A stretch of 64,000 bases of DNA, from assembly GCA_012033055.1 (NCBI GenBank), contig JAAUPR010000003.1:1-64000 (forward strand), written 5' to 3'. Shown in pieces: positions 2,680-5,805 of this stretch (position 1 is the first letter of the stretch; the number at the start of each line of letters is the position of its first letter). Origin of the DNA: Limnothrix sp. RL_2_0 (GTDB lineage: Bacteria; Cyanobacteriota; Cyanobacteriia; Cyanobacteriales; MRBY01). The notes beneath the pieces are model-generated. The model had not been told where the DNA came from. It ran no database searches and saw nothing but the letters and a program-made list of their open reading frames with translations. The position numbers were made by a program, and so were the translations under genes.

Positions 2680-3522
2680 ATGAATCCTATCCTCCAAATT
2701 GCGATCGCCACCATTCTCCTTGGGTCATCTGGGGTATTTATTAAGTTTGCCGAACTGTCACCGATTGTGATGACTTTTTTTCGGGCAGGCATTCCGCTGA
2801 TCTTGGTGTCAGGGATTTTTCTCTATCGCCGAGAATCGCTCTTTCGTGGCGCAAGTCCGCTGCTGCTATTTATCTCGTTTCTGGATGCCATTCGGGGGCT
2901 GTGCTACGTCATTGGGTTTAGCTATGCCGACCTGAGTAGTGCGGTGATCATCCTCTACACTTGGCCGCTGTTTGCCACTTTATTTAGCTGGATTTTCCTC
3001 AAGGAAGCGATTCCCCGCCGTAATCTCTGGCTACTGCCTTGTTTTCTGTTGGGCATCATCGTCATCTATGCCAACGACGAGATTAGTTTATCGAGCCAAA
3101 ATTTTCTGGGCTTAAGCAGTGTGTTGCTCTCCGCGATTCTCGTAGCCTGTACGGTGGTGATGTACAAAACAAAATCTGTAGACTTTTCGCCTTATCGGTT
3201 GATTTTTTACCAAAACTTTTTCGCGGCGGCGATCGCCTTTCCGTTTCTCATCACTGTGCGCCCATTCCCCGACTCTTTCCAAATCACGATGGGCACAATT
3301 TACGGCATGCTGGTGGGTTTTATCGCGTTTATCTTTTTCTTCTCTGCCCTCAGCAAACTAAAAGCATCCACGACCGCTTTGCTCTGCTATTTAGAAGTCT
3401 TGAGCACAATCATTTTTGGCATTGTTTTTTTCAAAGAACAATTATCACCCAATGTCATGGTGGGAGCATCGCTCATTCTGGGGGGCAGCTTTTTCCTACA
3501 AAAAGACACCGCAAAATCGTAG
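2680..3522 (+). CDS. DMT-superfamily (EamA) transporter
   Basis: This 280-residue protein has ten predicted hydrophobic helices in two EamA halves. The first half starts with the 'LLGSSGVFIKFAEL' helix, and the second contains 'YRLIFYQNFFAAAIAFPFLI'. Such proteins are inner-membrane exporters of metabolites or amino acids; the substrate cannot be told. The start ATG at 2680 follows 'AATACCGAACCAAT'. The stop TAG lies inside the left terminal repeat of the 3514-3686 element, so that element is inserted right at, or supplies, the 3' end of this gene. Confidence 0.85.
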   Translation: MNPILQIAIATILLGSSGVFIKFAELSPIVMTFFRAGIPLILVSGIFLYRRESLFRGASPLLLFISFLDAIRGLCYVIGFSYADLSSAVIILYTWPLFATLFSWIFLKEAIPRRNLWLLPCFLLGIIVIYANDEISLSSQNFLGLSSVLLSAILVACTVVMYKTKSVDFSPYRLIFYQNFFAAAIAFPFLITVRPFPDSFQITMGTIYGMLVGFIAFIFFFSALSKLKASTTALLCYLEVLSTIIFGIVFFKEQLSPNVMVGASLILGGSFFLQKDTAKS

Positions 3523-3686
3523 GATGCTGTGGAGACGGCAAAAAAATTCTGGAATTATCGAGAAATAATCTATCCGTCGTAACGCATCTTTTTAAAATGA
3601 TGGACATTAAACCGATGGGTTACGCTTGATCAAAATTGTTTGTTTTTGGCGATGAATCATCACTCGCTTCAACCATCCTACGATTT
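3514..3686 (+). mobile_element. Short non-coding element with 13-bp perfect inverted ends (repeat family A, copy 1)
   Basis: The ends are AAATCGTAGGATG (3514-3526) and CATCCTACGATTT (3674-3686), perfect inverted repeats. The interior contains GAGACGGCAAAAAA ... TATCCGTCGTAACGCATC. The left 70 bases recur inverted at 43463-43533 and, more diverged, at 57130-57196. It has no coding capacity. It fits a MITE-like or palindromic dispersed repeat of the GTAGG(G/A)TGCGTTA type scattered in cyanobacteria. It supplies the stop codon of the DMT gene and ends next to the ParB-like gene's stop. Confidence 0.65.
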
Positions 3687-3687
3687 A

Positions 3688-4455
3688 CTAAAGTTGCTTA
3701 ATATCAATAAAGCGATTCCATGCATCAAGAATTTTCACCATTGTTTTCTCAGTGATAGCCCGTGTTTTATTTTTATTATTCAAACAGACCCTTTCTGAAA
3801 TATCTAAGAAAGAAACGAATTGCCCTTTTTCTCGTTCTTTTTCTAGCGCTAAAGCAATATCAGTACATCTTTTACCTCTAATGCCAGTGGACTGTAATTT
3901 ATCCACTAAGTTCTTGTAGCTACCTGTATTAAAAAAATCTAAATGATCTTGATCGCAAGGTACTAGACTTTTGACATCCAAAAACTTTTTATCGAGATTG
4001 GTTAACAAATCAGACTGCAACCTGGAGATTTCAAACTTTAATTGATCTTGGATATGGGCTAATAAATTTTTCTCTAAAGTGGCGATCGCCTGACCATCAA
4101 TACCTGCACTACTTACTGTTGTATTAGCAGAACTAGTTTCCGTAGAATCATAGAGATTATATTGCTGCTGAAGTAAGGATTGATTATCTTTGTTAGCAAC
4201 AATCCCCCTAATCAATTCAAAATCATCATTTATTTCCCTTGCTCTCACTGCGGCATAATATTCAAGATGCCCAAACACAACCTCAAAACTTTCTAGATCA
4301 ATACGTTGAACTAAGATTGGTTTTACATTACCTCCAGCAGTTAAATAATTATTAGCCAAGCCATCAATCTCCTCTTTAGAAAACTTAGATCGAGGCTCAG
4401 AACTACTCAAAGAAGTAATATCTAATAGTTGAATATCCAGTAAATTTTCTATCAT
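3688..4455 (-). CDS. ParB-like N-domain protein paired with the ParA fusion
   Basis: This is a 255-residue protein. Residues 5-85 follow the ParB/sulfiredoxin fold pattern: an 'LDITSL' strand, an 'EEIDGLANNYL.AGG' helix, then 'VKPILVQRI' and 'FEVVFGHLEYYAAVRA'. The box that reads GERRxxA in classical ParB reads GHLEYYA here (residues 62-68), so the arginines that contact CTP are absent. The middle is coiled-coil-like and the C-terminus (175-255) is helical with 'IRGKRCTDIALALEK'. No classical ParB helix-turn-helix is visible. It starts 3 bases after the ParA-fusion stop, so the two are surely co-translated. The partner role is inferred from this arrangement. Confidence 0.7.
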   Translation of the reverse strand: MIENLLDIQLLDITSLSSSEPRSKFSKEEIDGLANNYLTAGGNVKPILVQRIDLESFEVVFGHLEYYAAVRAREINDDFELIRGIVANKDNQSLLQQQYNLYDSTETSSANTTVSSAGIDGQAIATLEKNLLAHIQDQLKFEISRLQSDLLTNLDKKFLDVKSLVPCDQDHLDFFNTGSYKNLVDKLQSTGIRGKRCTDIALALEKEREKGQFVSFLDISERVCLNNKNKTRAITEKTMVKILDAWNRFIDIKQL

Positions 4456-4458
4456 TAT

Positions 4459-5805
4459 TTAAGCATCCATTTTTTCTAAGATTTCATCTGCCAATTTCTC
4501 GAATTCACTAGCTGAAATAGAATCAGGCTTATAATCAAAAACAGACAACGGATCAGGAATTTCGTCTTCTCCATACTCGATGGTATGTTCCAAAGCTTTT
4601 GCTAAATCTTCTCTTTCAAAAATAGAGGATGAGAGTACAGGGAAACCATAACGTTCCTCCACGAGGACACGACGCTTAGGATAGGTATACTTCACAAATC
4701 TAGAGTTCGTCGAAACTTTAGAGGGTAAAACACCAAGAACTTTGAGAGGCTCTAATCCATACATATCTTTGACTTCATTGGCATCATTAATAATGTCACG
4801 TACATTATTAAGTCCTTCATTAGCAAAAGGTTTGAGGTCAGAAGGAATGATTAAATACCCTGCTGTAATCAAAGCGATTCTGGCATAGAGGTTGAGTGAT
4901 GGGGGAGTATCAATCAAGACAATATCATAATCTTTTTCGACGGCTTTTAATTTTGATAAAAGTCTAAATTTTGAAGCTTCAATAGTCGTAAATTTATTTT
5001 CAACTTCCATCATGCTGATGTGGGCTGGAATAACATCAATAGATGATCCTGCAACGAAAGAGGCAGGGCGGGCAACATCTTTAATCTGGAATTTATCTTT
5101 CGATTCAACTAATTGCCTAATATTATTATTTTTGATATTGTCTTCTGACTCATCAAGGAATTTGGCGAGACCAGTCGCATAGGTCGTATTTGCTTGGCTA
5201 TCAAAATCAACAATCAATACTTTTTTCCCTTTCTGTTGAAAAGCAGCGGCTAAGTTAACAACGGTAGTCGTTTTTCCGACGCCGCCTTTATTATGGTAAA
5301 CAGATATGATCTTCATGGACTTTTTTTCCTGAGGAGTTGTAGAAATATGGATTTCAGGGATTACGAGGGGCGGAGACGCTAGTTGATCTCTACCTACCAG
5401 AGACTTAATTTGCTCTATTTTGGGTTTTATTTCTGTGCCTGTACAGCGAAAGCAAAGCTCAACTATTTTGTTCCGCAACTCATAAATACGAAAATCTTTG
5501 CCATTCGTCAATACGCCATAGGGTGAGCGTAGCTCGAACATGTATTTTCTAATCTGAGCAAAATGATGATCTAGGTTTTTCTTCGGACTCTTTGCCTCAA
5601 TGATCAAACCTAAAGGCCATCTAAAATCACGATCTAGATGTCCCATTCTGGCTGTGAATGCCATGAAATCCAACCGAATTTTGCCAAAAGCGACTTCTTG
5701 GTACCAAGTGTTTGATGTGTAACCAAGGTTTGGCAATAGATACTGGACAATCAGCTTACTTTCAACTTCTGTTTCATTTCGGTAAAGACAACTATTAGAG
5801 ATCAA
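4459..5805 (-). CDS. HsdR-N-like nuclease domain fused to a ParA ATPase
   Basis: This is a 448-residue protein. Residues 10-125 look like the PD-(D/E)XK domain found at the N-terminus of type I restriction HsdR subunits: 'KIRLDFMAF' gives D46, 'LIIEAKSP' gives the E70-x-K72 pair, and 'YGVLTNGKDFRIYEL' is the usual closing strand. Residues 164-448 are a full ParA: deviant Walker A 'NKGGVGKTTT' (172-181), switch 'VDFDSQANTT', 'VLIDTPPSLNLYARIA', and a helical tail. A Met at 164 could start a ParA-only form. The ParB-like gene follows by 3 bases. The combination suggests a DNA-segregation module with a cleavage or DNA-sensing head, possibly from a plasmid or defence element. The domain calls are solid; the function is not known. 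Confidence 0.8.
   Translation of the reverse strand: MISNSCLYRNETEVESKLIVQYLLPNLGYTSNTWYQEVAFGKIRLDFMAFTARMGHLDRDFRWPLGLIIEAKSPKKNLDHHFAQIRKYMFELRSPYGVLTNGKDFRIYELRNKIVELCFRCTGTEIKPKIEQIKSLVGRDQLASPPLVIPEIHISTTPQEKKSMKIISVYHNKGGVGKTTTVVNLAAAFQQKGKKVLIVDFDSQANTTYATGLAKFLDESEDNIKNNNIRQLVESKDKFQIKDVARPASFVAGSSIDVIPAHISMMEVENKFTTIEASKFRLLSKLKAVEKDYDIVLIDTPPSLNLYARIALITAGYLIIPSDLKPFANEGLNNVRDIINDANEVKDMYGLEPLKVLGVLPSKVSTNSRFVKYTYPKRRVLVEERYGFPVLSSSIFEREDLAKALEHTIEYGEDEIPDPLSVFDYKPDSISASEFEKLADEILEKMDA

Follow-up and report, generated by a model that had tools for sequence, protein, structure and literature searches.

ParA ATPases move plasmids, chromosomes, and carboxysomes; to our knowledge, none is known for cutting DNA. 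In the stretch of DNA analyzed here (the window, 64,000 nucleotides from the cyanobacterium Limnothrix sp. RL_2_0), a ParA is fused to a restriction-type nuclease head and followed by a ParB-like gene, which raises the question of what such a pair does for the cell. A first interpretation made from the letters alone (the sequence-only reading) had offered three answers: a plasmid-derived segregation module, an anti-phage or anti-plasmid system that uses ParA to place a nuclease, or a DNA-recognition head that does not cleave. Comparison with other cyanobacteria, plasmids, and viruses suggests that cyanobacteria and their viruses are engaged in an arms race that has not been described before. 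Each of the domains is already known; what is new is their combination and the role that we infer for it. No account of an HsdR-N/ParA fusion turned up in open-licence PMC articles, and one may exist elsewhere.

Architecture of the Fusion Protein

The fusion gene (4459..5805, minus strand, as are all window features given below) has a TTG start and encodes 448 aa comprising an HsdR-N/PD-(D/E)XK head and a ParA ATPase, as delimited by its open reading frame and Pfam. The nuclease-type head covers residues ~8–122 (5440..5784, with the HSDR_N_2 core at 5470-5754), an assignment based on Pfam and residue invariance; residues 18–112 match HSDR_N_2 with E 4e-7 and 30.5 bits, relative to a Pfam cut-off of 25 bits, and the same family was matched by all 40 aligned fusions. 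D46 (5668-5670) and the E70-x-K72 pair (5596-5598 and 5590-5592) are placed as the sequence-only reading had them, and Q84 (5554-5556) and Y88 (5542-5544) make the QxxxY motif of the window protein complete. The ParA/MinD-type domain occupies residues 164–446 (4468..5316; Pfam, AlphaFold, and Foldseek) and includes the deviant Walker A motif KGGVGKTT (5266-5289). Residues 164–344 match AAA_31/ParA (E 9e-51), and the best structure matches of the domain are Soj/ParA proteins (E to 1e-16), which bears out the claim of a full ParA ATPase in the same polypeptide. Within it, residues ~231–355 (4741..5115) are the counterpart of a segment whose allelic variation was measured in relatives.

AlphaFold modeled the whole protein with a mean pLDDT of 80. 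The nuclease fold proposed for the head came through this check only in part: the head was modeled as alpha/beta, but confidence was low at residues ~40–66, around D46, and the Foldseek matches listed for the model were to the ParA domain only, none of them to a nuclease fold. Because of this, the putative PD-(D/E)XK fold rests on profile matches and invariant motifs rather than on confirmation by the model. The head resembles the N-terminal nuclease domain of HsdR from type I restriction systems (HSDR_N/HSDR_N_2) in its conserved D, E-x-K, and Y. Unlike those systems, the fusion has a ParA ATPase in place of a helicase/translocase and comes with no methylase or specificity subunit; SF2 translocase, HsdM, and HsdS were found neither in the polypeptide nor among the neighboring genes read.

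The ParB-Like Partner

The partner gene (3688..4455) begins 3 nt after the fusion stop and encodes 255 aa; the ParB fold and 3-base spacing claimed for it were both recovered. Its ParB_N/Srx-fold domain spans residues 8–90 (4186..4434; Pfam, alignment, and Foldseek). In the window protein the ParB_N match (residues 16–72, E 8.9e-6) falls just below the Pfam cut-off, the family is matched by 40 of 40 partners of the aligned fusions, and the domain aligns with ParB/Noc structures over 84 columns at 2.1 Å (Foldseek). Where ParB has the CTP motif GERR-x-R-A, the partner has a conserved G-x-x-E-Y-Y-A-A (4252-4272).

Residues 121–164 (3964..4095) were modeled by AlphaFold as one long, confident helix, which is probably a coiled coil. 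Beyond it, residues 169–248 (3712..3951) are predicted from Foldseek and Pfam to form a helix-hairpin-helix (HhH)-like DNA-binding domain, with structure matches to AF1531 (8e-6) and ComEA (0.46) and, in relatives, Pfam matches to HHH_3, HHH_6, and DUF655. Some other partners carry a SAP/Rho_N-like C-terminal domain instead. No HTH family was matched in the partners, the coiled coil and the HhH- or SAP/Rho_N-like C-terminus standing in its place.

Distribution and Conservation

Our survey of cyanobacterial genomes found relatives of the fusion (E <= 1e-30) in 62 of 386 genomes, representing 36 of 142 genera. Most are full-length fusions with 44–67% identity; a few belong to a second subfamily. 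The fusion is thus widespread in cyanobacteria, and the sequence-only reading's concern that it might be unique to one assembly did not hold. An exact-peptide search of genome contigs recovered it only from Picosynechococcus sp. PCC 7117. In all 42 loci inspected, including a broken copy in the window genome, the fusion is followed immediately by a ParB-like gene in the same orientation. That second copy (L041, G000:C194:1-3651) has stops in both head and ParA, an intact partner gene (245 aa), and a Uma2/DUF820-like ORF alongside. Subfamily II, found with the G074 protein, adds about 16 further genomes, some of which harbor both subfamilies. It has the same architecture, and the partner adjoins in 15 of 16 loci, yet the two subfamilies align with each other at only about one-third identity.

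No substitution of D46, E70, K72, or Y88 occurs among 40 subfamily I and 16 distinct subfamily II fusions. The window protein and every subfamily II head retain the glutamine of QxxxY, whereas the remaining subfamily I heads have R or K at this position. These patterns bear on the possibility that the head has no catalytic activity and serves in DNA recognition or regulation, in a position like that of the N-terminal HTH of type Ia plasmid ParA, with the operon being an autoregulated partition relic. N-terminal DNA-binding extensions (HTH) are indeed known in type Ia plasmid ParA, most subfamily I members have R or K in place of the glutamine, and head-less ParA-partner pairs exist (L109-L111, L114, L115), so the nuclease is not always needed. 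An inactive head would nonetheless have to account for four residues held invariant in 56 fusions across subfamilies so distant from one another; for that reason the recognition-only head is disfavored, and we consider this explanation quite unlikely.

Genomic Setting

The window pair is flanked by ordinary genes, as the sequence-only reading had described, and housekeeping genes also neighbor other family loci (ileS, a PAS/HAMP histidine kinase gene, threonine synthase, and clpB). That reading had further taken the pair for an acquired cassette beside an inverted-end element. The element itself is real: 173 bp, MITE-like, at 3514-3686, with 13-bp perfect inverted ends (3514-3526/3674-3686). 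The cassette argument fails, as the element is an unrelated dispersed repeat and does not mark an edge of the pair. About a dozen more matches to it, partial or full, occur elsewhere in the window genome, and several were found in two congeners. In Picosynechococcus sp. PCC 7117, of the same genus, the pair lies at a different site, between clpB and an M3 oligopeptidase gene; either the pair has therefore moved or the genome has been rearranged. The DCC gene downstream of the pair is conserved in six of six genomes of the window genus, and since no DMT gene lies beside DCC in the compared stretches, no clean empty site could be defined. Rfam gave no match in the pair region, where promoter-like sites were no more frequent than in shuffled sequence.

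In 22 complete or near-complete genomes the fusion is on the main chromosome; with dnaN taken as the origin marker, its positions are uniformly distributed (KS p 0.94; 2 of 22 within 10%). When 72,556 plasmids were searched by tblastn with the fusion, the head, and the partner, only generic ParA, ParB, or HsdR-N matches were returned and no fusion, nor was the fusion found in 50,697 phage records or IMG/VR. Given the lack of plasmid or phage records with the fusion, the main-chromosome copies, and the lack of origin bias, a plasmid-derived segregation module is unsupported as the present role. No parS-like repeat array was found in the window or in three of four relatives, a search that a distant or degenerate parS could escape; relative L067 has only a CTC-rich repeat, which is coding.

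Like ParABS systems (Soj/Spo0J and plasmid types Ia/Ib), the pair couples a deviant Walker ParA to a ParB_N/CTPase-fold partner encoded immediately downstream. Unlike them, its ParA carries a nuclease head, its partner combines a coiled coil with an HhH or SAP/Rho_N-like C-terminus and has neither HTH nor GERR, there is no ori bias, and alleles are swapped rapidly in cassette-like fashion (see below). The pair fits neither plasmid partition nor ori-proximal ParABS. A broader role in segregating or positioning the polyploid cyanobacterial chromosome, with ParA gradients moving partner-bound loci and the head nicking or decatenating DNA, would suit the complete ATPase, the ParB-fold partner, the strict operon, and the head-less pairs, along with the operon's stable presence in the chromosome and its fixation in one genus. 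We nevertheless regard it as unlikely, because the partner lacks an HTH and reads G-x-x-E-Y-Y for GERR, no iterated centromere-like repeats were seen beside the operon, the dnaN-relative position is uniform, the distribution is patchy, and the fusion is on none of the plasmids searched.

Among 134 neighbors of 24 loci, no PADLOC family recurred beyond generic matches, and no PADLOC family covers the fusion; defense islands were not found around the pair.

Allele Swapping in Two Genera

Within two genera the head is 86–99% identical, and the later part of ParA and the partner form divergent alleles that are inherited together. The first genus (that of G095) is probably Microcystis; a phage contig with a stand-alone partner N-domain, described below, shares intergenic elements with Microcystis phages. 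The operon is present in all 12 genomes of this genus, at the same site in the six with aligned flanks; upstream DNA is 94–98% identical (nine genomes) and the head 93–99%. In those six, DNA identity is ~90% or more upstream and through the head and P-loop, drops between allele types to 59–83% in the middle of ParA and 47–70% in stretches of the partner, and exceeds 90% again immediately downstream in genomes with a shared context there. Across the 12 genomes, ParA residues ~231–355 and the partner N-domain sort into the same three groups (seven, four, and one genomes), with a Mantel correlation of 0.97 between ParA middle and N-domain (p 0.0002), as opposed to an independent head and partner (r 0.18, p 0.13). 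Variation is freer in the C-terminal domain of the partner, which recombines further.

The second genus (that of G125) has 39 positive genomes, 28 of which were analyzed. Median identities are 93% for the head, 67% for ParA2, 53% for ParA3, 59% for the partner N-domain, and 34% for its C-terminal domain; ParA2 covaries with ParB_N (Mantel r 0.92, p 0.0005) and the head does not (r -0.06). Sliding windows show upstream coding DNA and the head mostly at ~90% or more, followed by a variable ParA/partner block. Linkage between ParA and partner N-domain is strong and not absolute, since L048 and L050 have the partner N-domain in common at ~90% despite differing ParA; L061 and L063 differ by exchange of the partner C-terminus alone. 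Strains exchange the recognition parts in matched combinations and retain the head. Under chromosome segregation, such diversity of alleles would stem from ParA/ParB pairs being incompatible when they reside in the same cell.

Phage-Encoded N-Domains

Searching IMG/VR with the family profile, we identified four viral contigs, from about two lineages, that encode the partner N-domain as a stand-alone protein (E ~1e-33 to 1e-35). The proteins have 117 aa (L164/L166), 119 aa (L167 and L168, identical), and 100 aa (L165/L169), and the genes are at L166:10001-10354, L167:1290-1649, L168:10001-10360, and L169:10001-10303. All lack the coiled coil and the DNA-binding tail, have no ParA nearby, and read G-x-x-E-Y-Y like the host partners. 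The L166 and L168 contigs contain terminase and anti-repressor genes, the L165 contig tail-assembly and DNA polymerase processivity genes.

The N-domains of L166, L167, and L168 match one host allele, and one phage N-domain is 90% identical to a specific host allele. The DNA of the L166 gene shows 93% identity to host allele 3 across exactly the first 302 nt, vs. 66–72% for alleles 1 and 2, and in the 12 host genomes the L166 N-domain matches full-length partners only. No viral copies were found using the window partner or two other host alleles as query. A weaker case is ORF27L of Anabaena podophage A-4L (L163:4975-10128, PDB 9k3a), a 1717-aa virion "tail protein" in which residues 1337–1402 form a ParB-like domain resembling the host partner (E 5.7e-9, and E 5e-12 over 62 residues); it is possibly an injected mimic. 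ParB/Srx-fold domains of the DdrB-like type are also phage-carried, some of them in virion proteins; these polyvalent, virion-delivered domains retain a conserved arginine and are regarded as probable enzymes (PMC5512222). The phage N-domains described here are similarly phage-borne and perhaps virion-located (A-4L), but differ in reading G-x-x-E-Y-Y and in copying a host ParA-partner allele.

An N-domain that comes without ParA or a DNA-binding tail is a further difficulty for chromosome segregation. Instead of inhibiting the host system, the phage N-domain could activate the ParA-nuclease against the host chromosome or serve in superinfection exclusion. The N-domain is the expected regulator of ParA, host DNA breakdown benefits phages, and allele matching fits activation as well as inhibition; taken alone, activation leaves the intact head and the diversifying interface unexplained unless the system has some other benefit, and we find it distinctly improbable.

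A Possible Host–Virus Conflict

We consider host–virus conflict the best explanation, because the head stays tied to the genomic backbone, ParA and ParB_N are co-inherited and exchanged, and the phage copies are allele-matched. That the pair is a two-protein, nucleoid-bound nuclease system directed against invaders and countered by allele-matched phage mimics seems to us somewhat probable. Like other ParAs, the ATPase of the fusion would bind DNA non-specifically as an ATP dimer, and the partner would dimerize through its coiled coil and bind DNA through its C-terminal HhH domain (SAP/Rho_N-like in others). Docking of the partner ParB_N on ParA would then concentrate and activate the nuclease on partner-marked DNA, which it would cleave. 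A phage stand-alone ParB_N, having no DNA-binding tail, would occupy the matching ParA surface as a dominant-negative mimic, to which hosts may respond by exchanging the ParA segment and ParB_N as a cassette while keeping the head. The fuller proposal, a new chromosomal immunity in which ParA carries a nuclease over the nucleoid under non-canonical ParB control and phage counter-defense drives the cassette swapping, is offered tentatively, at a likelihood a little short of even.

The strict pairing of fusion and partner in many genera and in the distant subfamily II also favors conflict. Counting against it are the lack of a defense-gene neighborhood, the single-copy state of the operon and its fixation in one genus, which set it apart from most defense systems, the head-less pairs, a mimic found in four viral contigs only (about two lineages), and co-inheritance of ParA segment and ParB_N that is not strict everywhere (L048/L050). 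The anti-phage or anti-plasmid answer of the sequence-only reading accordingly gains from the allele swapping and the phage N-domains and loses from the genomic neighborhood; the allele-matched phage N-domains would support protection against phage or plasmids indirectly. If the pair does provide immunity, the mechanism is undescribed, common among cyanobacteria of ecological importance, and visibly countered by phages. If it serves segregation, it would be a partition-like system of the chromosome in which a nuclease is combined with an unusually polymorphic ParA/ParB interface, and this would be equally unexplained.

Related ParA- and ParB-Like Proteins

McdB, the partner of the cyanobacterial ParA ATPase McdA, is not known to have a ParB fold. 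McdA/McdB is the carboxysome-positioning pair of cyanobacteria (eLife 2018, PMC6328274) and is similar to the pair described here in joining a cyanobacterial ParA ATPase to a partner, with use of the nucleoid to be expected. It differs in that the present ParA has a nuclease head, and McdA structures were weaker Foldseek matches than Soj/ParA.

Several loci contain additional proteins of these families. A stand-alone ParA of ~294 aa is encoded divergently beside the operon at L046:7836-8720, with equivalents in about a dozen Nostocales-type loci; this type adjoins ileS in several loci, and both fusion subfamilies occur beside it. At L122:5774-8974 (G121), one polypeptide links a ParA of the family to the C-terminal half of an SF1 helicase (AAA_12); the ORF just upstream combines a DUF559/MTES_1575-like nuclease with the N-terminal half of the helicase, and a broken subfamily II pair adjoins. 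ParA/ParB relatives labeled "Enterococcus phage" were rejected as canonical Soj/Spo0J beside rsmG; the record (L170, OR846609.1) has rsmG, soj, and spo0J in a row and is probably bacterial chromosome. Finally, the L168 phage contig also encodes a separate ParB-like protein related to partition proteins and methyltransferases (phrog_620), at L168:4158-4811.
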